A stretch of DNA of 64,000 bases from assembly GCF_001642935.1 (NCBI RefSeq), contig NZ_CP016761.1:3658001-3722000 (forward strand), given 5' to 3'. The stretch's first letter is position 1; each line of letters starts with the position of its first letter. The DNA is from Fictibacillus arsenicus. Lineage in GTDB: Bacteria; Bacillota; Bacilli; Bacillales; Fictibacillaceae. Positions 27,225 to 59,858 of the stretch are shown here, one piece after another. Below the pieces are notes generated by a model, which ran no database searches, was not told the DNA's origin, and worked only from the letters and a program-made list of their open reading frames with translations. Both the position numbers and the translations under genes were made by a program.

Positions 27225-27260
27225 GGGAAATAAATAGTTTGGGGCCAGTCCCCATTTCCC
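27225..27260. repeat. REP-like palindrome upstream of the RAYT gene
   Basis: GGGAAAT (27225-27231) and ATTTCCC (27254-27260) enclose GGGGCCAGTCCCC. It is the same design as 21030-21067, with the same outer arms and a different core centre. Confidence 0.75.
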
Positions 27261-27315
27261 ACAATGCCTTTGCTAGTAGTACAATAAAAGAACAACCCGA
27301 AAGGAGGTGATATCA

Positions 27316-27957: not shown

Positions 27958-27984
27958 ATGTATTTGTCTGGGGTCCCCCTATAT
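27958..27984. repeat. REP-like element downstream of the RAYT gene
   Basis: ATGTATTTGTCTGGGGTCCCCCT shares its left arm with the copy at 25173. The core is shortened to GGGGTCCCC. It lies directly behind a terminator hairpin, as the copies at 25173 and 30730 do. Confidence 0.65.
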
Positions 27985-44530: not shown

Positions 44531-44660
44531 GGGTATGTAACCAGTCGATTGGTTTCCAGGCCGTAATTTTTGATTCTGTAATTATTTATAAGCCGTAATT
44601 TATTTTTCTAGGCTGTAACATTCATTTCCAGGCCGTAATTCTTCATTTATAGACTTTTCG
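44531..44660. repeat. Degenerate approx. 20-nt repeat array A
   Basis: Units centred on AGGCCGTAATT recur. The GTAA anchor starts at 44537, 44563, 44578, 44595, 44615 and 44635, and a weaker unit TTATAGACT follows. The last intervals are exactly 20 nt, the earlier ones are irregular (15-26). It lies between the Lrp gene end and the dpp start. No coding signal. Confidence 0.55.
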
Positions 44661-44676
44661 ACAAACCCACAGCCAT

Positions 44677-44722
44677 AAAAAAGAAAGGCCGCACGCCTAA
44701 ATTACTGGCATGCAGCCTCACC
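44677..44722 (-). terminator. Rho-independent terminator
   Basis: On the minus strand, AGGCTGCATGCC pairs with GGCGTGCGGCCT and a T-run follows. It ends the Lrp-type gene. Confidence 0.8.
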
Positions 44723-44741
44723 CTTTTCTATCATTCTTTTA

Positions 44742-45191
44742 TTATAGTTTTAATCCAGATCTGCTCTTGAATCTTCTTAAAAGAATATGCGATTCCACTC
44801 TGGAAATACCTTTGATTCCATAGAGTTCATTGTTTATGAATTTCTCCAGTGAAGGAAAGTCTTCCACTAATACGTGCATATGTAAGGTACTCGGCCCTGT
44901 CATCTGATAGCAGCTGGCCACACTTGGATTATTCACGAGCTTTTCCGCTACTTTTACGAGGTATGCCGGTTCACAGTCTACTTCGAAAAACGCTGAGACT
45001 GTTTTACCTGCCGCTTCTGAATCAATGACCACGCTGAACTTTTCAATAACACCTGCTTTTCTCATCTGGTTCACGCGCTCCCGAACAGAAACCCGGGAAA
45101 GGTTCAGCTCTTTACCGATCTCTGCATAAGACATTCTTCCATCTTGAGTCAGCAGCTCTAATATTTTTCGATCTGTATCATCTATTTTCAA
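44742..45191 (-). CDS. Lrp/AsnC-family regulator (YwrC-like)
   Basis: A 149-residue Lrp-type protein: HTH IDDTDRKILELLTQDGRMSYAEIGKELNLSRVSVRERV, then an RAM/AsnC ligand domain (VASCYQMTGPSTLHMHV). The start is taken as TTG 45191 after GGTGATTTTA. An ATG at 45224 has no ribosome site. In B. subtilis an AsnC-type gene (ywrC) sits among ywrABD. Here the same set is spread around the dpp operon, so it may control that cluster in response to amino acids. Confidence 0.85.
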   Translation of the reverse strand: MKIDDTDRKILELLTQDGRMSYAEIGKELNLSRVSVRERVNQMRKAGVIEKFSVVIDSEAAGKTVSAFFEVDCEPAYLVKVAEKLVNNPSVASCYQMTGPSTLHMHVLVEDFPSLEKFINNELYGIKGISRVESHILLRRFKSRSGLKL

Positions 45192-45467
45192 TAAAATCAC
45201 CACGTTTACTTTGAATGTGTTCATTGTAAGCGTTATTTTCTAAAAATTCAAATAAGGCTTAGGTGGACAACTGTATTACAACAGATAATCGTCCTCTATG
45301 ATAGGACAAAATGGTTATATACCTGTAAAAACCTTCAAATAGCTAGGACAGATGACTTAATTTAAGAAAAAAACAAAAAATGTTATAAAACAGCTGTTGC
45401 AAAATATAATCTGTTATAATACAATGCATTATAATCAAATCAAACAAAAAAACAGGAGGAATTTAAA

Positions 45468-45599
45468 ATGAAAAACTATCTTGAGCTTCACTTCAATATC
45501 CCAAAGAAAACGTGTGTCGAGTGTGGATGTGTGATTGAGGAGCAGCATGAATCTTACCTTTATGAGTGCGAACGCTGTATCGGAAAACACGAGAGGTAA
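45468..45599 (+). CDS. YhfH-like small zinc-ribbon protein
   Basis: A 43-residue protein with two CxxC pairs (TCVECGC and YECERCIG), the pattern of the YhfH family. ATG 45468 follows ACAGGAGGAATTTAAA. A TATAAT box with an upstream TG (TGTTATAAT) lies about 55 bases before the start. It precedes aceB but has its own apparent promoter. Function unknown. Confidence 0.75.
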   Translation: MKNYLELHFNIPKKTCVECGCVIEEQHESYLYECERCIGKHER

Positions 45600-45670
45600 A
45601 TTTTTTTACACATGTTGTTATATAACAATTAATATTTGTTTCATCTGTTCAATAACATAATCAGAAAGGA

Positions 45671-47272
45671 ATGTCGCTAAAAGTGAAAATTGATACGTCA
45701 AGTCTTCATGTAACAGGAAATACCCCGCCCGAATATGAAAAGATCTTAACACCTGGTGCAATTCTATTCTTAAAATCGCTTCATCTGCAATTTAATTCAA
45801 CGCGAAAAGAACTTTTGGAAAAGCGTAAGATCAAGCAAAAAGAAATTGATTCTGGGGTATTCCCCGCCTTTCTGAGTGAAACAGAGCATATCCGCAACAG
45901 CAATTGGACGATCGCTCCACTTCCTCAGGACCTTCAAGACCGCCGGGTTGAAATTACAGGACCTGTTGACCGGAAGATGATCATCAATGCTCTGAATTCC
46001 GGTGCAAAAGTTTTCATGGCTGATTTAGAAGACTCCAACTCACCGACTTGGGAAAATACAATTGAGGGCCAGATTAATCTAAAGGACGCGGTCAACCGGA
46101 CGATTTCTTTTGAAGGACCAAACGGGAAAAAATACCAGCTCAGGCATAATCCCGCTGTACTAATCGTTCGTCCCCGCGGCTGGCATTTAGAAGAAAAGCA
46201 TATTGTTGTCGACGGAGAACCGATGTCTGGAAGTTTAGTAGATTTTGGACTTTATTTTTATCACAATGCAAAAACGCTGATCGAAAAAAGTTCTGGTCCT
46301 TATTTTTATCTTCCTAAGATGGAAAGTCACTTAGAAGCACGACTCTGGAATGATGTTTTCATCTACGCGCAGGAACAGCTGGGCATTCCGAGGGGTACGA
46401 TTAAGGCGACTGTACTAATCGAAACCATTGTTGCCGCTTTTGAGATGGATGAGATTTTATATGAACTGCGCGATCATTCTGCAGGCGTGAACTGCGGACG
46501 CTGGGATTATATTTTCAGCTACATTAAGAAGTTCCGCAATCAGCCGCACGTGATTCTGCCTGACCGTTCCCTTGTTACGATGACTGTACCATTCATGAGA
46601 TCGTATTCTGTTCTTGCGATTAAGACGTGTCACAAACGGAACGCACCTGCAATCGGCGGTATGGCGGCACAAATTCCGATTAAAAATGATGAGAAAGCAA
46701 ACGCTGCTGCTTTTGAAAAAGTGCGTGCTGACAAAGAACGCGAGGCATCTGACGGTCATGACGGGACATGGGTTGCCCATCCGGGACTCGTACCTGTTGC
46801 TATGGAAGTGTTTGACCGAATCATGCCGCAGCCGAACCAGATCGACCGAAAACGAGAAGATGTCGTTGTAACGGCCGACGATTTAGTGGCTGTACCAGAA
46901 GGCGAAATTACAGAAGAAGGCTTGCGCGTCAACATAAGTGTCGGTATTCAGTACATCGCTTCATGGCTGAGAGGAAAAGGCGCAGCGCCAATCAATCACT
47001 TAATGGAAGATGCCGCTACGGCTGAGATTTCGAGAGCCCAAGTGTGGCAATGGATCCGCCATCCGAAAGGTGTTTTAAGTGATGGACGTAAAGTTACATT
47101 CGAACTGGTAGAGCAGCTAAAGTTAGAAGAAGTTCAAAAGTTGAAACAGCAAATGAGTGAGGATTCATTCAATAACGGCCGGTTTATGGAAGCGGTCGGG
47201 CTGTTCGATGAACTAATCCGCGAAGATGAGTTTCAAGATTTCCTGACTAACAGAGGCTATGACATTTTATAA
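45671..47272 (+). CDS. aceB: Malate synthase A
   Basis: A 533-residue malate synthase of the A type: [50 protein letters not shown]-like block, and [18 protein letters not shown], which carries the catalytic aspartate. It condenses acetyl-CoA and glyoxylate to malate. AGAAAGGA abuts ATG 45671, so a GTG at 45683 could be the real start. Isocitrate lyase follows, giving the full glyoxylate shunt, with a repeat element between. Confidence 0.95.
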
Positions 47273-47298
47273 ATGGATGGTTTAAGGCTATTTATGTG

Positions 47299-47441
47299 AC
47301 CCTTCATTGACAAGTTGATTGGAGCGCAAGGTGCGAGACTCCTGCGGGACGAGTGGGACAGGTGAGACTCCTGAGGGCGCAAAGCGCTAGGAGGCTCACC
47401 GCCCGCCCCGCGGAAAGCGAGCATCTGGAGCGGAAATCAAC
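47299..47441. repeat. Dispersed Bacillaceae palindromic repeat, copy 2
   Basis: This 143-bp GC-rich element between aceB and aceA begins ACCCTTC and GTTGATTGGAGCG, and ends GGAGCGGAAATCAAC. Its ends are complementary (GTTGATT/AATCAAC). It shares many blocks with the copy at 4936-5137 but lacks the 60-nt insertion. A strong hairpin here could reduce aceA expression from an upstream promoter. Confidence 0.75.
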
Positions 47442-47481
47442 CACTTCTACAAAAAAATAAAAACATTAAGGAGAGGGACTA

Positions 47482-48768
47482 ATGACTAATTCACGTGTGG
47501 AGAAGCTTAAGGAAATGTGGAAAAATGAGGAGCGCTGGCAAGGAGTAAGCCGCCCTTATACAGCGGAAGAGGTTATCCGTTTGCGCGGATCGATCGATAT
47601 TGAACATACCCTTGCAAAACATGGGGCAGAAAAATTCTGGAACATCCTTCAAAATGAAACATATGTAAACGCTTTAGGGGCTTTAACGGGGAATCAGGCT
47701 GTTCAGCAGGCAAAGGCAGGTCTGAAAGCCGTATACTTAAGTGGTTGGCAGGTCGCAGCAGACGCCAACCTTTCTGGAAACATGTATCCGGATCAAAGTT
47801 TGTATCCGGCGAACTCTGTGCCACACGTGGTAAAACGTATAAACTCTGCTCTTCAGCGCGCAGATCAGATTCAGCATTTAGAAGGTGGAAATGAAGTGGA
47901 TTACTTCTTGCCAATTATAGCGGATGCTGAAGCCGGGTTCGGCGGACAGCTAAACGTATTTGAACTGATGAAAGGCATGATCGAATCTGGCGCTTCCGCT
48001 GTTCACTTTGAAGATCAGCTGTCTTCTGAGAAAAAATGCGGACATCTTGGCGGAAAAGTGTTGCTTCCGACTCAGACGGCGGTTCGGAATTTGATTTCGG
48101 CTCGCTTGGCAGCTGACGTGATGGGTGTTCCGACTGTGCTGATCGCCCGTACGGACGCTGATGCGGCTGACTTAATTACGAGCGATATCGACCCGGTTGA
48201 CCAGGAATTTATTACTGGTGAGCGTACAGCTGAAGGATTCTATCGTACAAAAGCTGGTCTGGATCAAGCGATCGCGCGCGGTTTGGCTTATGCGCCATAT
48301 GCTGATTTAATCTGGTGCGAGACATCTGAACCAAACTTAGAGCAGGCACAAAAGTTTGCGGATGCGATTCATGAACAGTTCCCTGGCAAACTATTAGCCT
48401 ACAACTGCTCGCCGTCTTTCAACTGGAAAAAGAAGCTGGATAATGCGACGATCGAAACATTCCAACAGCAGCTTGCGGCGATGGGCTACAAGTTCCAGTT
48501 CGTAACTTTGGCTGGCTTCCACGCGCTGAACCACAGCATGTTTGAATTAGCAAAAGGCTACAAATCTCGTGGAATGGGTGCATATTCTGAGCTGCAGCAG
48601 CGCGAGTTTGATAGCGAAATCGACGGATATACCGCTACCCGCCATCAGCGTGAAGTAGGAACAGGCTACTTTGATGAAGTAACACAGCTCGTTTCCGGTG
48701 GTACAGCTTCTACAACAGCATTGAAAGGATCTACAGAAGAAGATCAGTTTCAACAGCAGGAAGCTTAA
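47482..48768 (+). CDS. aceA: Isocitrate lyase
   Basis: A 428-residue isocitrate lyase with the catalytic motif [12 protein letters not shown] (active Cys) and blocks [31 protein letters not shown] and [13 protein letters not shown]. It splits isocitrate into glyoxylate and succinate. AAGGAGAGGGACTA precedes ATG 47482. With aceB it allows growth on acetate or fatty acids. A strong terminator follows. Confidence 0.96.
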
Positions 48769-48810
48769 CTTCGTTGTATAGATAGAATAAGTGAATAGGA
48801 TAAATATAAA

Positions 48811-48847
48811 GAAAGGACAGGAGACGAGTGGCTCCTGTCCTTTGTTG
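48811..48847 (+). terminator. Rho-independent terminator
   Basis: AAAGGACAGGAG pairs with CTCCTGTCCTTT, followed by TGTTGGTT. It lies just after aceA. Confidence 0.82.
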
Positions 48848-48887
48848 GTTAGTTTTACGGTACGTGTTCTTTTATTTGTTACACGTC

Positions 48888-49003
48888 CGCTCAGGCTCAT
48901 TGGGGTTTCGCTCAAAAACGTCGAGTTACGCTCAAGATCCTCTTGCTACGCTCAAACTGCCTTTAGTTTCGCTCAAAATCTTCCTTTTTCGCTCAAAGTA
49001 CCC
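48888..49003. repeat. Regular 20-21-nt repeat array B (core CGCTCAAA)
   Basis: The core CGCTCA starts at 48888, 48909, 48929, 48949, 48970 and 48990, giving spacings of 21, 20, 20, 21 and 20. Five of six cores read CGCTCAA. The 11-13 bases between cores differ in each unit. The alternation of 20 and 21 breaks any reading frame, so the array is not coding. It sits in the convergent gap after aceA. Confidence 0.75.
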
Positions 49004-49021
49004 CTTTACATCATAAAAAAT

Positions 49022-49045
49022 GGGGACAGACCCGGGTCTGTCCCC
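49022..49045. repeat. Perfect 24-bp palindrome, REP-like
   Basis: GGGGACAGACCC is followed directly by its exact reverse complement GGGTCTGTCCCC. It sits 14 bases before the end of the ABC permease gene. The GGGG and CAGACCC blocks relate it to the other REP-like elements. Confidence 0.7.
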
Positions 49046-49058
49046 TACTATTTTACTA

Positions 49059-50018
49059 TTAAGCCTTCACGTCCCGCTTTTGGAAGACGGTAAACGTGAT
49101 TGCGAGCATGACTGCTGTGTAAATCGCTAGCATGCTGATGGAAAACGGAAGAGTTAAATCTTTGATCAGCTGGTTTTGCCCATCAATCAATGTACTGAGG
49201 TCCATGTTCGCAAACAGCGTGTAGATGATCCAGTCTTTGTTCGCGAGGAGCATCACGATCGTGTTTCCTGCAAACATCGTGAACATCGCTACACCAATCG
49301 CGACAGAGTTACTCATGAAGAGTGTTGAGATCATGAACGATAATGCGACTAGTGCAGTTAATTCAATAAATTCTACACCGATGTTCGCAAATACATATTC
49401 TACAACTGTTCGTTCTCTCACTTCCTGACTATCCGTTACGACTAGGTATGTCTGATCAATCCCGCCAAATCCATATGCGAGGCCGCCGACGAGCCATGTT
49501 GTCGCAATAACAACAAGCCACATGACAAACGCAAACCCAAGCGTCGCTAGAAACTTCGACAAAAGAATCTTCCATCTGCTGTAAGGACGGATCAGCAGCA
49601 TCTTAATCGTCCCTTTTGAAAACTCGCTTGATACGATATCACTCGCCACAACGATTACAAACAATCCGATCAAGGATGAAATTGGAGCCATTTCTTTCAT
49701 GTACTTCCACGTTGTTTTTTCATTGGGCGAAATGTCATTTTCAATGGCATATTCGTTTTGCTTGATGTTTGATTCAAGCATATCAATATAAATTTGATTC
49801 TCGTTATTTTTCTTAGCATCTTCCAGTGCTTTCTTATCATCTTCAAGCGTTTGTGTAAGCAATTGCTTCCAGTTATCATTCTCTACTTCTTCAGTCGTCA
49901 CTTTATCGTAAACCGCGACACCGATAATAATTAAAATAGGAAGTGCGATAAAAATCCACGTTCTGATTCTGCTAAAGATCTTAATCCATTCATTCGTTAA
50001 CAGGGACAGCCACTTCAT
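49059..50018 (-). CDS. ABC-2 type exporter permease
   Basis: A 319-residue protein with an N-terminal helix (about 21-40), an outer coiled-coil loop (residues 50-110, rich in lysine, asparagine and glutamate), and five later helices with EFSKGTIKMLLIRPYSRWKI, typical of ABC-2 permeases of the BcrB/NatB kind. It overlaps the ATPase gene by 29 nt. Together they form an exporter; antibiotic or ion export are usual roles. Substrate not known. Confidence 0.88.
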   Translation of the reverse strand: MKWLSLLTNEWIKIFSRIRTWIFIALPILIIIGVAVYDKVTTEEVENDNWKQLLTQTLEDDKKALEDAKKNNENQIYIDMLESNIKQNEYAIENDISPNEKTTWKYMKEMAPISSLIGLFVIVVASDIVSSEFSKGTIKMLLIRPYSRWKILLSKFLATLGFAFVMWLVVIATTWLVGGLAYGFGGIDQTYLVVTDSQEVRERTVVEYVFANIGVEFIELTALVALSFMISTLFMSNSVAIGVAMFTMFAGNTIVMLLANKDWIIYTLFANMDLSTLIDGQNQLIKDLTLPFSISMLAIYTAVMLAITFTVFQKRDVKA

Positions 50019-50940
50019 TCATATCGCCCCCTTTCTTTGTCATCTCTAAGAATCGCTCTTCAAGCGTCTTCGTTTTGCGTTGGATACCAACTACGAGAAC
50101 ACCAGCAAGCACCAGCTGTTTGTTAATCTCTGCAATCGATTTTACGTCAGAAGTCTGAACGATCAGTTCGTTCCCGCTTTCCGCCACAGCCAGCTCAGGA
50201 TTCATGTCAGAAAGAACCTGTTTCGCTTGTGTTAAATCGCCTTCGATCTGGAAATGAACCTTCACATCTGCTTCATCTTCCTGATTCGTGATCTCATCGA
50301 TTCGGACAAGCTTTCCATGCTGAATAATCGCAACACGGTCGCACATCATCTGCATCTCAGCAAGCATATGAGAAGAAACGATAACGGACGTCCCGTTGTT
50401 GGCAAGCATACGCAAATAGTTTCTCAAATCATAGATTCCTTGTGGATCAAGACCGTTAGTAGGCTCGTCTAAGATCAACACGTTCGGCTTATGTAAAAGT
50501 GCCTGTGCGACACCAAGACGCTGCCTCATTCCAAGTGAATATGTTTTTACTTTGTCGTGAATCGCATACTCTAAGTCTACGAGTTTAATTACTTCATCAA
50601 TTCTTTCCTTCGTAACGCCAGGCATGATCCGCGCATATTGCATTAAGTTTTTGTAGCCTGACATAAAATCATAAAGCTGCGGGTTTTCAACGATTGCCCC
50701 GACTTGTTCCATCGCTTTTTCATAGTTTCCGCGAACATTGGTGCCATTTATAAAAACATCACCGTCCGTGATCGAAATCAGCCCTACAATCATACGGATA
50801 GTCGTGGTCTTCCCCGCACCATTAGGCCCAAGCAATCCAAAGATCTCGCCTTCTCTGACAGAGAAAGATAAATCATCAACGATCGTCTTGCTCTTAATCT
50901 TTTTCGTCAAATTTTTAAGTTCCAACGTATGTGTCGTCAT
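49990..50940 (-). CDS. ABC exporter ATP-binding protein (BcrA-like)
   Basis: A 316-residue ABC ATPase with Walker A GPNGAGKTT, signature YSLGMRQRLGVAQ, Walker B VLILDEPTNGLDP and a C-terminal extension of about 90 residues typical of the CcmA/BcrA group. ATG 50940 has AGGAGGAACT upstream and is preferred to 50964. It is the first gene of a two-gene export operon. No two-component system or membrane regulator lies next to it. Confidence 0.9.
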   Translation of the reverse strand: MTTHTLELKNLTKKIKSKTIVDDLSFSVREGEIFGLLGPNGAGKTTTIRMIVGLISITDGDVFINGTNVRGNYEKAMEQVGAIVENPQLYDFMSGYKNLMQYARIMPGVTKERIDEVIKLVDLEYAIHDKVKTYSLGMRQRLGVAQALLHKPNVLILDEPTNGLDPQGIYDLRNYLRMLANNGTSVIVSSHMLAEMQMMCDRVAIIQHGKLVRIDEITNQEDEADVKVHFQIEGDLTQAKQVLSDMNPELAVAESGNELIVQTSDVKSIAEINKQLVLAGVLVVGIQRKTKTLEERFLEMTKKGGDMNEVAVPVNE

Positions 50941-51041
50941 AGTTCCTCCTATCCTATCTCTCAAACATATCCTGCACTATAGATACGATTAAGAATAGAA
51001 AATAGTTTCATAAATTTGTAAAATAATCCATTTTAATGGAT

Positions 51042-51080
51042 AGGGGTGGGGGTAGGGGTCTGACCCCTACCCCCACCCCT
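51042..51080. repeat. Perfect 39-bp palindrome, REP-like
   Basis: AGGGGTGGGGGTAGGGGTC (51042-51060) and its exact reverse complement (51062-51080) flank one central base. It has the same GGGGTCTGACCCC centre as 21030-21067, with longer arms. Its end overlaps the stop codon of the transporter gene at 51079. Confidence 0.75.
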
Positions 51081-51978
51081 ATACCTCCTGCTGTTCAAGT
51101 TTTGTCATTTTTGTTGATATATAGACGCCGCATATTACAAATACTCCGCCTAATGCTTGGTACCAGGCAAGTTTTTCTTCGATAAATAACACTGCAAAAA
51201 TGGCAGCAAACACCGGAATCAAGTTAAGAAAAATTCCTGCTTTATTCGGTCCGACTCGTTCTACAGCTGTGTTCCATGACATAAATGCAACAATAGAGGC
51301 AAAAACACCTGTATAAAGGATCGTCAATATGGAACCTACCGACCATACAATTTCAGTCGTTCTCGCCTCCTGTATAAAGAAAGGAAGCAGAATAAATATA
51401 CCAAGAACCATCGAGACCGCAAAGGTGCTGTATCCTGGTAATTTACCGGCATTTTGTTTTACAAGCAACGAATAAATGCTCCAGCAGATAACAGCAGCAA
51501 TCACAATCATATCCCCTGCGTTAAATGAAAACTTCAGCAAGACATCAAGTGAACCTTGGGAAATAATAATGAGCAGCCCCGCTAATGATAGCACGGTTCC
51601 GATGATCTGATTACGGTTCAACCGATCGCCCAGCATGAAAAAAGACAGTATATAAATGATGATTGGTGTTGAAGTATTAACAAGTGATGCATTTATGGAA
51701 GTCGTGTAATGAAGAGCGATATATAAAAGCGTGTTAAATCCGGCAACACCAGTGAGTGCCATGAGCAGCACAATCGGCCACTTCTTCTTAACAATTGGCC
51801 ATTCTTTTTTAATCATCGGCCACACAAACGGCAGAAAGATAAGGAAAGCTGTGCACCAGCGCAAAAAGGACAGTGAAACGGGCGGCAAACTGCTCGTAAT
51901 CGCCCGTCCGATCACGAAATTTCCTCCCCATATTAAAGTAGCCACAATAAGCAGTACGTATGGATTCACTTTTTTCAT
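51079..51978 (-). CDS. EamA-family transporter
   Basis: A 299-residue protein with ten helices in two EamA repeats (residues about 10-140 and 150-290): LLIVATLIWGGNFVIGRAI and GPNKAGIFLNLIPVFAAIFAVL. Such permeases export metabolites or drugs. ATG 51978 has GGTGAG upstream; a GTG at 51990 is less likely. It is divergent from a second EamA gene, with array C in the gap. Confidence 0.88.
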   Translation of the reverse strand: MKKVNPYVLLIVATLIWGGNFVIGRAITSSLPPVSLSFLRWCTAFLIFLPFVWPMIKKEWPIVKKKWPIVLLMALTGVAGFNTLLYIALHYTTSINASLVNTSTPIIIYILSFFMLGDRLNRNQIIGTVLSLAGLLIIISQGSLDVLLKFSFNAGDMIVIAAVICWSIYSLLVKQNAGKLPGYSTFAVSMVLGIFILLPFFIQEARTTEIVWSVGSILTILYTGVFASIVAFMSWNTAVERVGPNKAGIFLNLIPVFAAIFAVLFIEEKLAWYQALGGVFVICGVYISTKMTKLEQQEV

Positions 51979-52000
51979 CGTAGATCTCACCGCTTTTCTG

Positions 52001-52125
52001 TAGATTAAGTCTATTTAGCGTGCAATAAGGTCTAAATGCGGATGCATTAGGTCTAGATTCAAAAAATTAAGTCTTCTCAGATATAAATTAGGTCTAATTT
52101 GAAATATATAGGTCTTTCGACAAAT
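52001..52125. repeat. Regular 20-21-nt repeat array C (core TTAGGTCTA)
   Basis: The GTCT anchor starts at 52009, 52030, 52051, 52071, 52092 and 52112, giving spacings of 21, 21, 20, 21 and 20. Cores read TTAAGTCT, ATAAGGTCT, TTAGGTCT, TTAAGTCT, TTAGGTCT and ATAGGTCT. It lies in the divergent gap between two EamA transporter genes. The rest of the gap (to 52325) is AT-rich promoter-like DNA. Confidence 0.75.
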
Positions 52126-52325
52126 CTTCTATATTCCTCTTACTATAGCAGTTCTGAATAAGAGCAGTAAAAGTTCTGCTTATCACCAGTAAAATTAGTC
52201 AATTCGCCTTAATCTTAAAATTCCAAGCTTTTTCTCTTTAAAAATTCTTCCAATAAGGTACAATTGAAACTAAAATCATTTTAATACTTTACTTCGTTAA
52301 GTAAAAGCAGAAGAAAGAAGATGAC

Positions 52326-53246
52326 ATGATGAAACCATACCGAACGTATTTGATATTATTCTTTGTTATGATTGCGTGGGGTTTGAACGTAACGGCGACG
52401 AAAATTCTCGTTACGAACTTTTTGCCTGTTACCATCACGGGTATCCGTGTGTTAACAGCAGGATTAACCGTATTTCTGCTTCTTTTTTTAATAAAAAAAG
52501 GCCGATGGCTGACAAAAAAGGAATTCTGGTACGTTTTTGTTGCCTCACTATTTAATGTTGTTGCCCATCACTATTACTTGTCGATCGGACTGACTGGAAC
52601 GACTGCTACAAACGGCGGATTGATCATGGGGATGTCGCCGCTTCTCACGACTATTCTGGCTATCCTTTTTATTGGTACACCTTTAACGCCTCTGCGCGGC
52701 ATTGGTCTTTTGCTAGGATTCACCGGAGTTGCTTTCATCGTCCTTGAAGGCAGTGAGGTTACGGGGATTTCGTTCGGAGATGCTTATATTCTTTTATCAG
52801 TACTCACTCAAGCTGTAAGTTTCATCTTGATTAAACGCGTGGCCCACACGCTCGATCCACGCTTGATGACCGGTTATATGATGGTCATCGGTTCGCTGTT
52901 CTTGATCGTGATCGGACTATTTGAAGAGCCTGAAGGGTTTGCAGGGATCATTGAGAATTCTACCGTCCCGCTATGGCTGATCTATTTCGCTTCTGCCTGT
53001 ATCGCAACAGCCGTTGGGCATATGCTTTATAACGAGGCAATCGGAAAAATCGGTGCATCCGAAGCATCGATCTTCATAAACTTAAATCCTTTCTTCGCAT
53101 TAGTCGGCGCATCACTCTTTTTAAATGAAAAAATCGGATTTCAGCACATCTTAGGCTTTTTACTCATTATCACTGGCGTTCTGTTAGGGTCTGGTGCAGT
53201 TGATGAGATCCGAAACCGAAGACTGCGCAAAAAAGATGCCGCCTAA
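52326..53246 (+). CDS. EamA-family transporter
   Basis: A 306-residue ten-helix EamA protein: LFFVMIAWGLNVTATKIL, GLIMGMSPLLTTILAILFIGTPLT and GASEASIFINLNPFFALVGASLFL. It ends with a basic tail (RNRRLRKKD). Start ATG 52326, or the adjacent ATG 52329, after AGAAAGAAGATGAC. Divergent from the other EamA gene. The two are distant paralogues. Substrate unknown. Confidence 0.88.
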   Translation: MMKPYRTYLILFFVMIAWGLNVTATKILVTNFLPVTITGIRVLTAGLTVFLLLFLIKKGRWLTKKEFWYVFVASLFNVVAHHYYLSIGLTGTTATNGGLIMGMSPLLTTILAILFIGTPLTPLRGIGLLLGFTGVAFIVLEGSEVTGISFGDAYILLSVLTQAVSFILIKRVAHTLDPRLMTGYMMVIGSLFLIVIGLFEEPEGFAGIIENSTVPLWLIYFASACIATAVGHMLYNEAIGKIGASEASIFINLNPFFALVGASLFLNEKIGFQHILGFLLIITGVLLGSGAVDEIRNRRLRKKDAA

Positions 53247-53276
53247 ACTTGTAACATAATAATAAATTCACTATCA

Positions 53277-53309
53277 AATCGCATCGTAATTCGTTGCGAT
53301 TTTTTTTGC
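53277..53309 (+). terminator. Rho-independent terminator
   Basis: AAATCGCA pairs with TGCGATTT and an eight-base T-run follows, just after the transporter gene. Confidence 0.82.
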
Positions 53310-53429
53310 ATAAAAGGGGCTACACTTCGTTTTAGAATGCTTTATAGCCTGCCAAAGGATTGAAAGACAATTAAATCGAATAGTTATAAGGGATGGAATT
53401 TATCTAAAAAAATGGGGGGGAGTAACCAG

Positions 53430-53957
53430 ATGTTTGAAAAATTTAATTTTGACTTAATTTATCGGGAGCGAGATGACTTCACCCCTCTAGTGGTAATGAT
53501 GTGTGGTGTGGCTGGTTCTGGGAAAACGACATTCTCACAACTATTAGAAAAAGAAGGCTTTGTACGTCTATCAATTGATGAAGAAATATGGGCTGTGAAT
53601 GGTCGTTACGGGGTTGATTTCCCACTTGAAAAGATTGAGGAATACAAGAAAGTAGCAGAAAGTAAATTGCGCAATTATTTAATAGAGTTGATTCATGATA
53701 AACAACAGGTGGTCATTGACTTCAGTTTTTGGGATCGTGCAAGAAGGGATCAATATAAACAACTTATTGAAAAGGCCGGCGGTAAGTGGCAGCTTATTTA
53801 TTTAAAAGTTCACCCTGATGATTTGCGTGAACGGCTTAAAATACGGAAAAGACGCTTTGATGCTAATGCGTTCCCTATTACAGAAGAAGTTTTAACTTCC
53901 TACCTTAATGGTTTCGAAATACCAAAAGGTGAAGGAGAAATTGTAATTGAAAACTAA
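53430..53957 (+). CDS. P-loop kinase-like AAA protein
   Basis: A 175-residue protein with Walker A GVAGSGKTTFSQ (residues about 27-38), then SIDEEIWAVNGRYG and VVIDFSFWDRARRDQYKQL, and an arginine-rich lid (RERLKIRKRRFDANAF). This is the plan of small phosphotransferases related to zeta toxins and chloramphenicol phosphotransferase-like kinases. ATG 53430 is preceded by GGGGGGAGTAACCAG. No antitoxin gene is beside it, so a toxin role is unlikely. Confidence 0.82.
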   Translation: MFEKFNFDLIYRERDDFTPLVVMMCGVAGSGKTTFSQLLEKEGFVRLSIDEEIWAVNGRYGVDFPLEKIEEYKKVAESKLRNYLIELIHDKQQVVIDFSFWDRARRDQYKQLIEKAGGKWQLIYLKVHPDDLRERLKIRKRRFDANAFPITEEVLTSYLNGFEIPKGEGEIVIEN

Positions 53958-53965
53958 ACCTATAA

Positions 53966-54001
53966 AATAAACCGAGCAGACAATAATCTGGTCGGTTTTA
54001 T
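53966..54001. terminator. Bidirectional terminator
   Basis: AAACCGAGCAGA pairs with TCTGGTCGGTTT around CAATAA, with A- and T-rich flanks. It lies between the kinase-like gene and the convergent thiF. Confidence 0.8.
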
Positions 54002-54005
54002 TCCT

Positions 54006-55022
54006 TTACCCTATGAACCTATTATAGATGGATTTCGCTTCTGCCGTATTTTTCGTTCCATGAACGAGCGCACGGCCGTCTTTAAAAAGGACGAATCGGC
54101 GGCTGTCACTTTCAACTTCAAGCAAATACGCGTTTCGCCGTACTTTTCCATGAGATACAAGTCTTCTCTCCATCTCTTCCAAGTCGATCTCTCGGTTGTA
54201 AGATGGGCGAATCTGGACCGTATCCCTGCCGCATAACACAGCCGTTTTCAATTCAGCCTTTCTTTCTAAATAAGGATACGCCGGATTAGCTCCACAGGAT
54301 GGACAATCCTCTTTTTTCGCCTTTTCCATTCCCAGCTGCATCTGCTGATTCTCCCAAAGATCAAAGGTTACGATCTTACGTCTAACCGCTTGGAAATCCT
54401 CAACGAGTATCTTTAATGCTTCTGCTGTCTGGTAAGCGACCACCATCTGAACCGCTGGCGCAATGATTCCAACCGTATCACACGTTTGGCCGTTCGCCGG
54501 AATTTTATCAAGAAGACAGTTCAGGCACGGCCCTTCTCCCGGGAGGATCGTATAGCTGATTCCGTAGCTTCCGACACATGCACCGTAGATCCAGGGCACC
54601 TGATATTTTTGAGCCAGATCGTTGATCATGAGCCTCGTCTCGAAGTTATCCGTAGCATCCATAATAAGATCGATTCCCGAGATCAGCTCTTCTGCTTCCT
54701 CGATCCCCATATCCATCACATGAGCCTGGATTTCAACATCACGATTGATCATTTGCAGACGGTTTTTGGCAGCAATAACTTTTGGCAGCTGATTCCTTGC
54801 ATCATCTTCTGAATAAAGCTGCTGACGCTGAAGATTCGTCCAGTCCACATAATCCCGGTCAACGAGGACAATCCTCTTTACTCCTGCACGGGTGAGCGCT
54901 TCAGCACTGGATGCACCAAGTGCCCCTGCTCCAACGATCAGCACGCTCTTCTCCCGTAATTTCGTCTGTCCTTTTTTACCTATCGGATTAAAAAGTTCTT
55001 GTCTCGAATATCTGTCATTCAC
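54006..55022 (-). CDS. thiF: ThiF-family sulfur carrier adenylyltransferase
   Basis: A 338-residue ThiF/MoeB-type enzyme: [14 protein letters not shown] nucleotide site, [29 protein letters not shown], and two zinc pairs (CLNC and CPSC). It adenylates the C-terminus of ThiS. It carries an extra C-terminal domain after about residue 245. The start is GTG 55022, overlapping the thiG stop (GTGA). Last gene of the thiazole operon; thiD is not here. Confidence 0.9.
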
Positions 55023-55786
55023 TTCACACTCAACCCTTCTAAAGGACTGCACGCTGTTGCCGTTTCTTTTCTCGGGATTCTGCCCGCTTCAAACCCTAGC
55101 TGCCCGGCTTCTACAGCCATCTTCATCGCCAGAGCCATCTTCACAGGATCCTTTGCACCTGCGACCGCTGTGTTCAGAAGCACGCCATCTGCCCCAAGCT
55201 CCATCGCAATCATCGCGTCACTAGGCGTACCGATTCCGGCGTCCACGATCACCGGGACCTTCGTCTGCTCGATGATAAATTTTAGATAGAGAGGATTAAT
55301 GATTCCCTGCCCAGAACCGATCGGAGAAGCAGCAGGCATGATCGCATGCGCACCCAGTTCTTCCAGACGTCTCGCCAGCACGACATCATCCGATGTGTAA
55401 GGCAGTACAATGAATCCTTCTTTTAGCAGTTCATCTGTCGCTTTTAATGTTTCTACAGGGTCAGGCAGCAGCGTTTTGTCGCAGCCGATTACTTCTACTT
55501 TTACCATATCACATAATCCGGATGCTTTCGCCAGTTTTGCAATGCGTACTGCTTCTTCAGCTGTTTTGGCACCCGCCGTGTTTGGCAGCAGGGTGTATTT
55601 TTTCAAATCAAGCATCTCCAAAAAGTTTGGCTGACTCGCTTCATAGATGTTCATCCGGCGTACGGCAAACGTTAAAATCTCAGAACCGGAAGCGTCTACC
55701 GCTTTTTTCTGTATCTCAAAATCCGGGTACTTTCCTGTTCCTAAAAGCAGTCTTGATGAAAATGAATAAGGTCCAATATGTAACAT
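55019..55786 (-). CDS. thiG: Thiazole synthase
   Basis: A 255-residue TIM-barrel Thi[40 protein letters not shown] (catalytic Lys), [12 protein letters not shown] and [11 protein letters not shown]. It forms the thiazole phosphate of thiamine from DXP, dehydroglycine and ThiS-thiocarboxylate. ATG 55786 follows GGAGGATGATCTT. Order tenI-thiO-thiS-thiG-thiF matches B. subtilis. Confidence 0.95.
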
Positions 55787-55790
55787 AAGA

Positions 55791-55994
55791 TCATCCTCCT
55801 CCAACAAATCGCACAAGTTCGATTTTGTCGTTTTCTTTTATTTGGGTATTATTTTGTTTTTCGTTCTGGATAATTTCCTCGTTCACTTCTGCGATGATAA
55901 TCTGGTCGTTCAGTTTCAAATGTTCGAGCAGTTCTTTAACTGATTTCAGTGCATCTGGCACCTGTACTACATCGCCGTTGATTTTAAGTTTCAT
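55791..55994 (-). CDS. thiS: Sulfur carrier protein ThiS
   Basis: A 67-residue ubiquitin-like sulfur carrier ending in ...RFVGGG. The final di-glycine is the site of adenylation and thiocarboxylation. ATG 55994 lies inside the end of thiO, with GAGGTG upstream, so translation is coupled. It donates sulfur to ThiG. Confidence 0.92.
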
Positions 55995-57057
55995 ATAAAC
56001 GCACCTCACTTTCTATTTGGTCGGCAATTATTTTACCGGTGACGGGTGACAGAAGGATTCCGTTGCGATAATGACCTGCCGCAACATGTAACCCCTCATG
56101 CTGCGGATGATGGCCGATATAAGGTTTTCCATCTTTGGTCTGAGGACGAATTCCCGTCCATGCTTTTTCAAACGCGGCTTTATTTAAATCGGGGACCATC
56201 TGTTTCGCTCGTTCCATCAATTCAAAAATACCTGCAAACGTAATTTTTTCATCGAATGTATGTGGAACACTTGTGGCACCAACAAAGATTCGGTTGTTTC
56301 GTTTTGGCACAAGATAACAGCCGTTGTATTTTACGGTTCCGTGCAGAAGCGGGTCGCTGGTCATAAACGAAATGCATTCGCCTTTTACCGGAACCATCTG
56401 GAGTTCAGGCAATAGGTTTGAGCTCCACACGCCGCCTGCTAAAATGACGTGATCTGCAAAAATAGTTTTCGAATCTGTTTCAACACCTTTTACCTTGTTT
56501 CCGCTTTGGATGAGTTGAACCGCTTCTGTTTGTTCTTTTACTTCTGTTCCGTAAAACGTTGCGCCTTCCAGGTAAGCTTTTGTCAGTTGTACCGGAGAAA
56601 CCTGACCGTCATTCGGAAAATAAAGAGCTCCAAGTGCTCTGTTTGAGATGGCTGGCTCCCGTTCTTGCAACTGACTAGACGATAGCCAGCTGACCGTTTC
56701 ACCCTGAAGTGTATCCCGTTCTGCCCGTTGTTGATGCCGATCACACTCGTCTTCCTTAAAAGCGAGTTCATAGATTCCATTTTCCATGAGTTCGATGTCA
56801 ATACCGCTAATCTCGTACAGTTCTCGCGACAGATCTCGAAACATCTGCCGACTCATTTTTGCGAGCGGATAGAAAGGATCATCCACATTGAACTCCATTT
56901 GTGCGCCAAGCATGCCAGCTGCGGCACTGGATGCTCTCTCTCCGACTTTGCCTTTTTCCAGCAGAAGAACTTTCTTTTGCTTTTTGGATAGCTGATAGGC
57001 GATGGAACATCCGATCACACCGCCTCCAATCACAATGGCATCATACGTTAAGCTCAT
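55984..57057 (-). CDS. thiO: Glycine oxidase ThiO
   Basis: A 357-residue FAD enzyme of the DAO family: AIVIGGGVIGCSIAYQLSK at the N-terminus and GIRPQTKDGKPYIGHHPQHEGLHVAAGHYRNGILL near the C-terminus. It oxidises glycine to dehydroglycine for thiazole synthesis. ATG 57057 has GGAGGTTTGGA upstream and overlaps the tenI stop. The Bacillus-type aerobic thiazole pathway is thus complete from thiO to thiF. Confidence 0.93.
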   Translation of the reverse strand: MSLTYDAIVIGGGVIGCSIAYQLSKKQKKVLLLEKGKVGERASSAAAGMLGAQMEFNVDDPFYPLAKMSRQMFRDLSRELYEISGIDIELMENGIYELAFKEDECDRHQQRAERDTLQGETVSWLSSSQLQEREPAISNRALGALYFPNDGQVSPVQLTKAYLEGATFYGTEVKEQTEAVQLIQSGNKVKGVETDSKTIFADHVILAGGVWSSNLLPELQMVPVKGECISFMTSDPLLHGTVKYNGCYLVPKRNNRIFVGATSVPHTFDEKITFAGIFELMERAKQMVPDLNKAAFEKAWTGIRPQTKDGKPYIGHHPQHEGLHVAAGHYRNGILLSPVTGKIIADQIESEVRLYET

Positions 57058-57661
57058 TCCAAACCTCCAATTCGCGTTTGTAATTTTTCGCTGCTTCAAG
57101 CGGTGATTCAGCTTCTAAAATTCCAGACATTACGGCAATGCCAGCAGCACCTGTATGAAGAACCTCACAAACGTTTTCCGCCTTAATGCCTCCGATTGCG
57201 ATAACTGGCACCGATGTTTGCTCTACAATATGATGCAACGGCTCAATACCCCTAGGATCTTGCTCTCGTTTTGATTCTGTCCAGAAAACATGGCCATAAA
57301 GGAGGAAATCTGCCCCTTTTTGTTCAGCATTTTGCGCTTCCTCCAAAGAATGGACCGAACAGCCAATCATCATATCTGGAAAAGCTGCCCTGACAAGAGC
57401 TGCGTCCAAGCTGTGGTAAGCTAGCTGAACTCCTTTCGTCTGCCAGCAAACAGCCACATCGACACGATCATTTATGATAATTTTACTCATGGGCACGCCG
57501 TTTCTTTTAAGCTGTTCGAGCAACTGGGTCAGTTCTTTCGCAGTCTTTGTTTTTTCACGTATGTGAAGAGCTGTTATGTATGTATGGATGTCGCGTGCGA
57601 TACGGGTGATCTCATCACCAGTTTGCTTGCCGTTTGTGATGACATGCAGTTGTTTTTTCAC
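57041..57661 (-). CDS. tenI: Thiazole tautomerase TenI
   Basis: A 206-residue TIM-barrel of the ThiE/TenI type. The GHVFWTESK motif supplies the TenI histidine; the ThiE substrate-binding lysine and pyrophosphate-loop pattern is not complete, which favours TenI. It aromatises the thiazole product. The start is GTG 57661. Its ribosome site (GGAGGTGG) is part of the terminator stem of the TPP riboswitch. tenA, which precedes tenI in B. subtilis, is absent here. Confidence 0.88.
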   Translation of the reverse strand: MKKQLHVITNGKQTGDEITRIARDIHTYITALHIREKTKTAKELTQLLEQLKRNGVPMSKIIINDRVDVAVCWQTKGVQLAYHSLDAALVRAAFPDMMIGCSVHSLEEAQNAEQKGADFLLYGHVFWTESKREQDPRGIEPLHHIVEQTSVPVIAIGGIKAENVCEVLHTGAAGIAVMSGILEAESPLEAAKNYKRELEVWNELNV

Positions 57662-57663
57662 AA

Positions 57664-57704
57664 TAAAAAAACCACCTCCTTTATGCAGCAAAGAGGTGGT
57701 TTCA
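57664..57704 (-). terminator. Riboswitch-controlled terminator overlapping the tenI ribosome site
   Basis: On the minus strand, AAACCACCTC pairs with GAGGTGGTTT around a short loop, followed by TTTTTTT. The 3' arm contains the GGAGGTGG of tenI. Ligand-bound TPP aptamer should favour this stem, stopping transcription and also hiding the ribosome site. Confidence 0.82.
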
Positions 57705-57748
57705 CAAATTTTTAGCGGATAATATCGTTAAAGATCTGTTCCACACAC

Positions 57749-57838
57749 CACTTCCCTACGCTGGTTCTAACCAAATCAGGTTCCAAGGGTCTTAAAGTTC
57801 ACTTCAATCTCAGCCTTCTAAAAGGCACCCCTAGTGGC
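57749..57838 (-). ncRNA. TPP riboswitch (THI element)
   Basis: On the minus strand it has the conserved blocks of the TPP aptamer in order: AGGGGTGCC, GGCTGAGA, GACCCTTGGAACCTGAT, and CCAGCGTAGGGAAG. It lies 90 bases upstream of tenI, with a terminator between. It controls the tenI-thiO-thiS-thiG-thiF operon by thiamine pyrophosphate level. Confidence 0.96.
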
Positions 57839-57899
57839 AATAAGTATTCATTTTTTATATTTTCATTCTATCGTTTAAGGGCTTACATAACAACCGGTT

Positions 57900-59198
57900 T
57901 TATAACAATAAATACGCGAGTGGAGTCGCTAAGATTAACGCCAACACCGTACGCTGGAACCAGATCAGCACAAGCTTCGGCAAACTGACCGGAATATCCG
58001 TTGACAGCACACACGGAATACTTGCTGAAAAGAACAGTATAGAAGCTACAGAAACAACCCCGATTACAAATTTTGTTACAAGTGCTGCTTCGGCAACAAG
58101 CAATGCTGGCAGGAACATCTCAGCAACTCCGATTGACGCCGCTTTCGCAGCAAGCATGGCATCCGGAAGCTGAAGCGCCCATGTGATTGGATAGAACACG
58201 TAGCCAATCCAGTCAAAAACAGGCGTGTATTCTGCTAACAATAGGCCGATCAGACCAACGCTCATGATCGAAGGCAATATACTCATCGCCATCACGAAGC
58301 CGTCTTTTAAGTTGGACCAGATATTAGTCAAAAAAGCAGGAGCGTTCTGTGATGAATCCATCGCATTTCTCCACGCGGTTTGCAGATATTTCTCGGTTAC
58401 CACTTCCTCAGGGTGACCTTCGCCATCTGAGTACGTATCATCCATTCGGCTTAAAGGACGGATTCGAACCGTAATTGCTGTTACAAGGAATGTCACGACA
58501 AGTGTCGTCCAGAAGTAGGTGTTCCACATTTCCATGAGACCGAGCGTGTTTGCCACAACGATCATGAACGTTGCAGAAACGGTAGAGAACCCTGTCGCGA
58601 TAATGGCCGCTTCTTTCACCGTATACTTTCCTTCTTTAAACACGCGGTTCGTGATCAGAAGGCCAATGGAATAGCTTCCTACAAATGAGGCAACGGCATC
58701 AACCGCTGACCTGCCCGGTGTTTTCCAGATGGGCCGCATGATTTTTTGAACGAGCACTCCAATGAACTCCATCAGACCATATCCTACGATAAACGCTAAG
58801 AACACCGCTCCGATTGGAACAAGCAATCCTACAGGAATAACGAGTTTTTCGAATAAAAACGGCCCCATGTTCGGGTCGCTTAACCAGCCCGGACCCCATT
58901 CAAAATAAAGAAGAACGGCTGCAACCAATCCCACAACTTTTAACAGAGAGAACGTGGTTGTGACCCGGTCTTTGTTCCACGTTTTCGTATAAAAAGGATA
59001 AACAGCGCCAAGAAGAATAACGAGCAATGCATAGAGCGGAACGGCTTCACCCGCCGTATCCCTTACCCAAGTCACGAGGTGATCGAGCGGAATAGACGAC
59101 TTTCCTTTGACCGTAATCGGAATGAAGAACATGAAAATACCAACTGCACTGAACAAAAGAAATTTTAAGGAATGAGACCAGGAACCTGCAGTTTTCAC
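57900..59198 (-). CDS. YjiH-family membrane protein with nucleoside-recognition (Gate) domains
   Basis: A 432-residue protein with about ten to eleven helices. Two Gate-type (nucleoside_recognition) regions are seen: VDAVASFVGSYSIGLLITNRVFKEGKYT and LPDAMLAAKAASIGVAEMFLPALL. YjiH-family members are putative transporters with no firm substrate. The start is GTG 59198 after AAAGGGAGTTGAAAGAA. A longer frame to 59366 begins in sequence with no ribosome site. It is not part of the thiamine operon, as the riboswitch separates them. Confidence 0.85.
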   Translation of the reverse strand: MKTAGSWSHSLKFLLFSAVGIFMFFIPITVKGKSSIPLDHLVTWVRDTAGEAVPLYALLVILLGAVYPFYTKTWNKDRVTTTFSLLKVVGLVAAVLLYFEWGPGWLSDPNMGPFLFEKLVIPVGLLVPIGAVFLAFIVGYGLMEFIGVLVQKIMRPIWKTPGRSAVDAVASFVGSYSIGLLITNRVFKEGKYTVKEAAIIATGFSTVSATFMIVVANTLGLMEMWNTYFWTTLVVTFLVTAITVRIRPLSRMDDTYSDGEGHPEEVVTEKYLQTAWRNAMDSSQNAPAFLTNIWSNLKDGFVMAMSILPSIMSVGLIGLLLAEYTPVFDWIGYVFYPITWALQLPDAMLAAKAASIGVAEMFLPALLVAEAALVTKFVIGVVSVASILFFSASIPCVLSTDIPVSLPKLVLIWFQRTVLALILATPLAYLLL

Positions 59199-59396
59199 TT
59201 CTTTCAACTCCCTTTCCGTGTGATAAGCCCGCCGTGCCAGGCTCTCTCTACAGTTTATCGGGACAAAGTTCGAATTATGCCGAGTCCTGCTTGTACAATT
59301 TTTATAAGTTATTTTCCCTTTCTGTACCTTTTCATGTCTGATTATCACGTGTCTAGGGAATAACATTTACATAATCAAAAAACAGGAGTGTTTTGA

Positions 59397-59666
59397 ATGA
59401 AGTATTTTATTAACGTTAATAAAAGTGTGGAAGAAGAGTATGGAAAGATGTTTGTTTATGATCCTGACCGCAACAAGGAAAACGAAGATGAACTTGAAGT
59501 GCTAAACAACCTGGACGAACAGGATCAAGGCAAGCCTTATATCTTTCCGAAAAGCTTTTTGTTAGAGGTTTCGGCTGAGGATTATGAGAGGTATGCTGAG
59601 GTTAAAAAGAGGAATGGAGATGTGGAGTCGGTTACGGAGTCGATTTTGGAAAGATATAAAAGGTAA
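59397..59666 (+). CDS. Small acidic protein of unknown family
   Basis: An 89-residue acidic protein (KSVEEEYGKMFVYDPDRNKENEDELEV at the start). It has no cysteine and no membrane segment. ATG 59397 follows ACAGGAGTGTTTTGA, and a strong terminator follows, so it is very probably a real gene. I do not recognise a family. It may be a small soluble protein of the type common in Bacillus. Confidence 0.7.
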   Translation: MKYFINVNKSVEEEYGKMFVYDPDRNKENEDELEVLNNLDEQDQGKPYIFPKSFLLEVSAEDYERYAEVKKRNGDVESVTESILERYKR

Positions 59667-59667
59667 A

Positions 59668-59698
59668 GAGCTGCCGAATTTGGCAGCTCTTTTTTCTC
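59668..59698 (+). terminator. Rho-independent terminator
   Basis: AGAGCTGCC pairs with GGCAGCTCT around GAATTT, followed by TTTTTTCTC. Confidence 0.88.
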
Positions 59699-59858
59699 TA
59701 TGAACCAAAGTCTCTGGTCTATGGGTCAAACTAGGTTTCAATGGGTCAAACCTGCCTATCTATGAGTCAAAATGCACGCTCAATGAACCAATTCTATTTC
59801 TACGAACCAAACTGGCAGCTCTATGAGTCTAAACTGCCCATTCCCCACTCAAATAGGA
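59699..59858. repeat. Regular 20-21-nt repeat array D (core CTATGAGTCAAA)
   Basis: Units read CTATGAACCAAA, CTATGGGTCAAA, CAATGGGTCAAA, CTATGAGTCAAA, CAATGAACCAAT, CTACGAACCAAA and CTATGAGTCTAA, with a decayed eighth. The ATG (or ACG) anchor starts at 59701, 59722, 59742, 59763, 59784, 59803 and 59824, so spacings are 21, 20, 21, 21, 19 and 21. It fills the convergent gap between a small gene and the CAP-domain gene. An open frame through it is a by-product. Confidence 0.75.

Follow-up and report, generated by a model that had tools for sequence, protein, structure and literature searches.

Intergenic arrays that share a 20–21-nt lattice but not a repeated word in Fictibacillus and other Bacillales

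Four arrays and their surroundings

The window analyzed here is a stretch of 64,000 nucleotides (nt) from the genome of Fictibacillus arsenicus (G000), a single contig of 4,055,461 bp of which the window comprises bases 3658001–3722000. Four of its intergenic gaps hold arrays of short repeats that recur every 20 or 21 nt, with a different repeated word, or core, in each array (Table 1). The lattice on which the units stand is real, constrained, and shared among related genomes, and the word that it carries is exchangeable.

Arrays 2, 3, and 4 keep six, six, and seven units at steps of 19–21 nt, which bears out the near-constant spacing described for three of the arrays by an initial annotation made from the letters of the stretch. 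The fourth, rightly called decayed, is array 1: it is of the same kind as the others and has been damaged by two losses of 4 bases, leaving three lattice units and a head. In array 4 the seventh unit is followed, 23 nt further along, by CACTCAAA. Four relaxed scan settings recover arrays 2–4 as chains of five to seven units, array 1 falling below these thresholds, and 30 shuffles of the window at each setting gave no arrays.

Two of the gaps, those of arrays 2 and 4, are convergent, as had been noted; that of array 1 is codirectional and that of array 3 divergent. The neighboring genes encode transporters, isocitrate lyase, an Lrp/AsnC-type regulator, a YkwD-family protein, and an 89-aa protein without a match; they are functionally unrelated and mostly face away from the arrays. 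Rfam covariance models gave eight matches up to an E value of 1 between positions 44000 and 60000, none of which covers an array unit; two sub-threshold matches adjoin arrays 2 and 4, and the only one to reach its cut-off in this interval is a thiamine pyrophosphate (TPP) riboswitch. Searches with blastn found no match to array 1 or array 2 among plasmids, and none to array 2 among phages. The hairpin that follows array 2 is a GGGGACAGACCCGGGTCTGTCCCC palindrome resembling those beside a RAYT-like gene of the window, and it is kept in sister species.

Table 1. Positions of the arrays, their heads, and other features in the window
Feature	Position	Strand	Core starts (steps, nt)	Basis
GGGGAC-type palindromes flanking the RAYT-like gene	~27241..27262; 27970..27983
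RAYT-like Y1 transposase gene	27307..27867	+		Y1_Tnp 49 bits; NF047646 60 bits, below cut-off of 80
Array 1, five decayed units (TTACRGCYTATAAAT type on − strand, head B class)	44559..44647	−	RGCYGTAA-like: 44559, 44575, 44591, 44611, 44631, head at 44650 (16, 16, 20, 20, 19)
Head B of array 1 (TGTCGAAAAGTCTATAAAT)	44648..44666	−
Terminator-like hairpin before array 2	48812..48843	+		from sequence, by eye
Head A of array 2 (ACGGTACGTGTTCTT...TTACACGT)	48857..48887	+
Array 2, six CGCTCAA units	48888..49001	+	CGCTCA: 48888, 48909, 48929, 48949, 48970, 48990 (21, 20, 20, 21, 20)
GGGGACAG palindrome, terminator-like hairpin after array 2	49022..49045	no strand		from sequence, by eye
Array 3, five full units (TAGACCTAAT on − strand)	52003..52109	−	RGTCT: 52007, 52028, 52049, 52069, 52090, 52110 (21, 21, 20, 21, 20)
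Head of array 3 (TTTGTCGAAAGACCTAT)	52108..52124	−
TPP riboswitch	57736..57842	−		Rfam, 84.5 bits
Array 4, seven ATGRGTCAAA/ATGAACCAAA units and a last CACTCAAA; no head recognized	59697..59853	+	ATGRGTCAA/ATGAACCAA: 59700, 59721, 59741, 59762, 59783, 59802, 59823 (21, 20, 21, 21, 19, 21)

Occurrence of the lattice

The initial annotation had proposed a search for the 20–21-nt period in this genome and its relatives. Such a search is positive in F. arsenicus, in ten sister genomes, and in other Bacillales, and shuffled DNA is empty. A chain scan (10-nt windows, at most two mismatches, at least four units per array) of 864 kb of F. arsenicus DNA, 400 kb of which was chosen near matches to array 1 and is hence biased, found 36 arrays at 19–22 nt; the same DNA gave two at 11–14, none at 15–18, one at 23–26, none at 27–30, one at 31–34, and none at 35–38 nt. 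Three shuffles gave 0, 0, and 0 arrays at 19–22 nt. An evenly spaced sample of 400 kb held 15 arrays in a count that unites two scan settings, and extrapolation from it suggests about 150 per genome. Of the 36 arrays, 34 lie outside any open reading frame (ORF) of at least 100 aa. The other two are L011:6209, within an ORF of 270 aa, and array 2, whose 100-aa ORF is implausible because the array steps by 20 nt.

All ten sister genomes, each sampled over 30–95 kb, contain arrays (7, 8, 10, 7, 9, 5, 4, 1, 2, and 2), and their other period ranges hold none or one apart from G006, with three at 15–18 nt. Eleven of the 55 sister arrays fall inside ORFs of at least 100 aa, mostly of 101–142 aa; one, within an ORF of 466 aa, is probably coding. 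The survey of other Bacillales covered 51 stretches from 48 genomes (969 kb) and found nine arrays at 19–22 nt in seven genomes, one of them in a 182-aa ORF, with none at 11–18 or 23–34, one at 35–38, and two at 39–42 nt; three shuffles gave no arrays. The steps of these nine are 21 (33 cases), 20 (17), and 19 (1), and their cores, among them TTATCTAGAA, TTCGGTAATA, TGTTATAT, ATACTTGCGA, ATCCAGAATT, and TCGCTATAAA, are unlike each other.

The preference for two step lengths is seen as well when no spacing rule is imposed. In 119 clusters called in this way from 1.567 Mb of Fictibacillus DNA, 110 steps measure 20 nt and 136 measure 21 nt, with five of 19, none of 22, and two of 23; where units are skipped, the next one lands at 40 (12 cases), 41 (8), or 42 nt (15).

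A pattern scan for three CGCTCAA units found, among the matches listed, 49 units in Lysinibacillus contaminans, 27 in Filibacter, 20 in Halobacillus, and 17 in Sporosarcina luteola; the arrays of the first three genera are long, with near-identical units. The long arrays at L131:4440-5457 and L092:5087-5489 are composed of higher-order blocks in which several units have been duplicated together. Chains in Collinsella stercoris (L094:6802-7173) step strictly by 19 nt and perhaps represent another lattice. Outside the Bacillota, 71 loci (514 kb) gave 13 arrays at 21–22, nine at 13–14, and six at 9–10 nt, but these loci had been chosen for a CGCTCAA triplet, some with coding or heptamer repeats, and are not a clean control. 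A small sample of Escherichia coli K-12 (200 kb) had no arrays in any of five period ranges.

Heads, cores, and spacers

Many arrays begin at one of about three fixed heads: head A, ACGGTACGTGTTCTT-N8/9-TACACGTTCGCTCAA; head B, TGTCGAAAAGYCTATAAAT; and head C, TGTCGACTCGYGAGTAT or TGTCGACTCGTGGTTAT. Exact head A occurs in at least 7 of 299 Bacillales genomes, all of them Fictibacillus among the matches listed, and head B, when one mismatch is allowed, in 3 of 200 Bacilli genomes, with 20 sites in F. arsenicus and one in each of the two others. By eye, head-adjacent units share one half with the head (GTTWC for A, CTATAAA for B, AATYC for C), and the other half varies between arrays. The claim that a common lattice carries unrelated cores thus holds, and holds also in other Bacillales, but the arrays are not wholly independent, because many of them fall into few head classes and half of the unit looks to be common with the head. 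The dispersed unit of family A measures about 147 bp and has at least 35 or so matches each in G000 and the sister genomes G002, G007, G013, and G014.

Within head B lies the word TGTCGAA, which resembles a 0A box (Spo0A); head C is without it. Arrays with head A include one with mixed cores (L013:7690) and two in tandem with different cores (L031:10098-10248). Another dispersed repeat, of the GCTCGCTTTCCGCGGGG...GTGAGCC type, occupies like gaps and at times replaces an array; it was seen from L008:12250, from L037:489, and in gaps of G002 and G014.

Spacer identity between units is 0.31 in F. arsenicus (31 of 36 arrays usable), 0.32 in other Fictibacillus, and 0.36 in other Bacillales, against an estimated 26–28% for unrelated DNA of such composition. 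Since the spacers are nearly as dissimilar as unrelated DNA, free drift should have broken the lattice. When the same unit is compared between species at five orthologous loci, cores differ at 77 of 1013 positions (7.6%) and spacers at 400 of 1382 (28.9%), so that, with the core type kept, cores evolve at about a quarter of the rate of spacers; the differences were counted over species pairs and are not independent, and species with no array or another core, as well as array 3 units not common to all five species used, were left out.

These properties are difficult to reconcile with ordinary minisatellites, in which tandem duplications of about 20 nt would decay neutrally. It is true that unit number differs between species, and that Lysinibacillus, Filibacter, and Halobacillus have long arrays of near-identical units. 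A single period, a lattice that is strict despite near-random spacers, cores that change more slowly than spacers at the five core-keeping loci, and conserved heads nevertheless make this origin very unlikely.

A helical rhythm is visible in base composition. A/T content within the arrays is autocorrelated at 10, 20, 30, and 40 nt, and its 10-bp harmonic, the strongest within the unit, exceeds all 500 column permutations in F. arsenicus (36 arrays), in other Fictibacillus (55), and at 15 Bacillales loci from the CGCTCAA-triplet scan (19 arrays); in other stretches from Bacilli (10 arrays) p is 0.002. The corresponding harmonic of purine content appears only in F. arsenicus and, weakly, in other Fictibacillus. 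In other Fictibacillus the spacers clearly follow the A/T phase of the core (42 of 52). Of the earlier proposal that two-turn phasing serves protein binding or bending, the phasing is upheld by the strict lattice and the ten-base A/T rhythm, whereas protein binding or bending itself is still an inference.

Whether units expand or swap their core had been left by the initial annotation to an alignment of orthologous gaps; both unit gain or loss and core switching are seen. Counted by eye, array 1 has five units in G000, two in G007, one in G002, a remnant in G014, and none in G013. Eight of nine aligned species retain array 3 at its gap, G013 having a remnant; BLAST matches of G017 pass over it. 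The gap of array 2 contains CGCTCAA with the same spacers in G000 and G007 and CACGCA in G014, and has no array in G002, G003, and G006. That of array 4 contains other cores in G013 and G003, with none seen in G007 and G002. At L024:7247 the core is CGCTCAA in G000, G002, G007, and G013, TTTCACGCAG-like in G014 and G003, and CACCGGTAA with GTGACCACC in G012 and G010. The array at G013 C88:57406 has CGCTCAA in G013, CACGCA in G014 and G002, and CACCTGTAA with GACCACC in G010. At L043:7836, TCCCACGTTA is found in G000, G014, G007, and G013, and other cores with varied heads in G002, G003, and G010. At L024:5248, GAAGGMTCATAAA in G000 corresponds to TTACGGCCTATAAAT in G007, and the arrays of G010 and G012 contain a gradient between the two. 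In all, five orthologous heads have cores that differ between species while head and lattice stay, and the switches occur while the neighboring genes stay.

The same core can recur at many loci of one genome, as do CGCTCAA in G000 and GCGTGRAAC at three loci of G014, a pattern that would be expected of operator arrays for several paralogous regulators, each with a core of its own. Switching of cores at orthologous sites with unchanged neighbors, and the unrelated and mostly outward-facing neighbors of the window arrays, argue against that explanation, which we regard as distinctly unlikely.

Position, orientation, and possible role

The gaps of the 36 F. arsenicus arrays are convergent in 13 cases, divergent in two, and codirectional in 19, the last two being without a left neighbor. 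Convergent gaps account for 13 of the 34 arrays with both neighbors called, compared with 90 of the 482 gaps measuring 150 bp or more. The position of most arrays is downstream of a gene, and 22 of 36 have a terminator-like hairpin pointing in within 120 bp, versus 13.6% of random genomic windows. A downstream position would also suit an element that acts as RNA, the array being transcribed and its repeated word bound in the transcript, and head B, on the gene strand in 9 of 12 codirectional gaps, is compatible with this. For head A the figure is only 6 of 11, however, array 2 stands between two terminator-like hairpins, and RNA folding of eight strands of the four arrays gave z scores of −1.34 to +0.93 versus shuffles, that is, no structure. 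Action at the RNA level is therefore highly improbable.

The GC skew of the F. arsenicus genome changes sign between 2.13 and 2.31 Mb. Among the matches listed, 6 of 28 head A sites have the head on the leading strand (p 0.0037), as do 16 of 20 head B sites with at most one mismatch (p 0.012), or 17 of 23 when three weaker sites (two mismatches) are added; part of the head B sites were checked for the presence of units. In convergent gaps pooled over species, with orthologues counted repeatedly, head A is leading in 2 of 17 cases and head C in 7 of 7. Composition was rejected as the cause of this bias: in 18 of 32 arrays, with four ties, the leading strand carries the G-rich side of the core, which amounts to no general rule.

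A replication-biased orientation is what single-strand transposition would give. Head and array might then be a mobile element spread by a transposase, either a RAYT-type single-strand HUH enzyme or a TnsB-like enzyme with the arrays as tandem sites; the dispersion of family A and the Y1 transposase gene in 18 of 18 Fictibacillus genomes speak for such a view. PF09299, the Mu-type C-terminal domain of transposases, however, is present in 4 of the 18 genomes and not in F. arsenicus. No chain of three or more units surrounds the RAYT gene in the three of 18 genomes inspected (the window, L303, and L304), the gene being flanked instead by GGGGAC-type palindromes. No target-site duplication or paired inverted ends, which would mark a miniature inverted-repeat transposable element (MITE), were seen by eye in orthologous gaps, whose borders are eroded, and array 3 has kept to a single gap throughout the genus. 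Mobility of this kind seems unlikely. Genomes with RAYT have eight arrays in 37 stretches (694 kb) and those without have none in nine (164 kb), numbers that are too few, from a count that left out two genomes with a weak RAYT call and five of the same family with no RAYT assignment. The RAYT-like gene itself occurs as one syntenic-looking copy in Fictibacillus genomes. A Tn7 right end, with TGTCGA as head followed by tandem sites, was also considered and rejected, F. arsenicus having no PF09299 gene and no inverted pairs being seen.

We favor, with a probability of roughly 0.4, the reading that the arrays are helically phased DNA platforms for protein binding or bending at the ends of genes. 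Each platform would consist of a fixed head followed by units of two helical turns (20 or 21 bp). In every unit one turn would bear a single constrained core of about 10 bp, with all cores facing the same side of the helix, and the other turn would be free spacer. The platform would most likely be read by one DNA-binding protein or by a small set of related ones, which may assemble along one face from the head and bend or wrap the DNA. Since most of the platforms follow genes and many occupy convergent gaps, their role is probably structural, whether as insulators of neighboring transcription or as anchors for supercoils or the nucleoid, and not the control of single genes. Whole units are gained and lost, and it is possible that a shrunken array regrows from a variant unit; the core would then be exchanged without any change to head or lattice. 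Alternatively, the new core may be copied from another array with the same head.

A phased platform explains the lattice, the free spacers, and the A/T rhythm. What it has yet to account for is the reading of cores that are unlike, and several points weigh against it. A single protein would not find it easy to recognize CGCTCAA, TTTCACGCAG, and CACCGGTAA alike at the same orthologous head; F. arsenicus has some 15 core types (by eye), and no binding protein was found. The clusters called without a spacing rule also step by 12 (22 cases), 15 (11), 18 (19), 24 (9), and other lengths, although these steps look like coding repeats. The comparison of rates, being limited to loci and species that keep their core, understates core change across the genus. 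The A/T phase of spacers is weak in F. arsenicus (19 of 31, p 0.012) and falls short of significance in other Bacillales (12 of 24, p 0.13), and test periods of 12.5 and 14 scored too in Fictibacillus, so that resolution is poor. The control for terminators was random genomic windows and not matched gaps. Array 3, in its divergent gap, lies 14 bp from a start codon.

A bolder proposal, which we hold to be doubtful but worth stating, is that the arrays form a class of Bacillales elements in which the lattice is conserved and the sequence is not. Selection would act on two-turn spacing and on the equality of units, the word would be exchangeable and switched as a set at orthologous heads, and the DNA would be recognized by its phasing and self-likeness. 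Spacing is the defining property of the arrays, and no tested class fits them; a literature search, beyond whose reach lay subscription literature and preprints, found no description of such arrays. Bacterial intergenic DNA is usually sorted by sequence family, and here the family is defined by spacing, one 20–21-nt lattice bearing unrelated words in F. arsenicus, its sister species, and further genera of Bacillales. Should it be the lattice and the similarity between units that selection keeps, and not the word, sequence-based searches will miss such elements. If the proposal is true, it describes a new way of reading DNA, by phase and not by letters, which simple spacing mutants could put to the test; the switches of core at orthologous sites provide a natural series for the same purpose.

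The initial annotation knew of no class into which the arrays would fit, and iterons, CRISPR, REP/RAYT elements, and Tn7-like ends indeed fail the tests run. The arrays resemble CRISPR in that a repeated word alternates with a variable stretch of constant length. CRISPR repeats and spacers each measure at least 23 nt, and the whole array unit measures only 20–21 nt, with a word of about 10 nt and a variable stretch of about 11 nt that is common to orthologues. Like REP/BIME elements with RAYT (PMC3733652), the arrays are numerous, short, and intergenic, and F. arsenicus has a RAYT-like gene. Unlike in REP/BIME, the array unit is not palindromic and forms no hairpin (z scores above), and the RAYT gene is not flanked by arrays in the three genomes inspected. 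STAR elements of staphylococci are likewise intergenic, with a short word separated by variable stretches; theirs is one GC-rich word, while the arrays here have one lattice and many words and heads. The ends of Tn7- and Mu-like elements have a TGT terminus and then tandem sites of 20–22 bp, resembling head B and its units; the arrays differ in the missing PF09299 gene of F. arsenicus, in that no inverted pairs are seen, and in their long vertical retention. The iterons of theta-replicating plasmids are direct repeats of about 20–22 bp in helical phase, as are the arrays, and form one array of one sequence, bound by a cognate protein, at a replication origin beside the rep gene. Unlike iterons, the arrays number 36 in 864 kb of a single genome and have many cores and unrelated neighbors.

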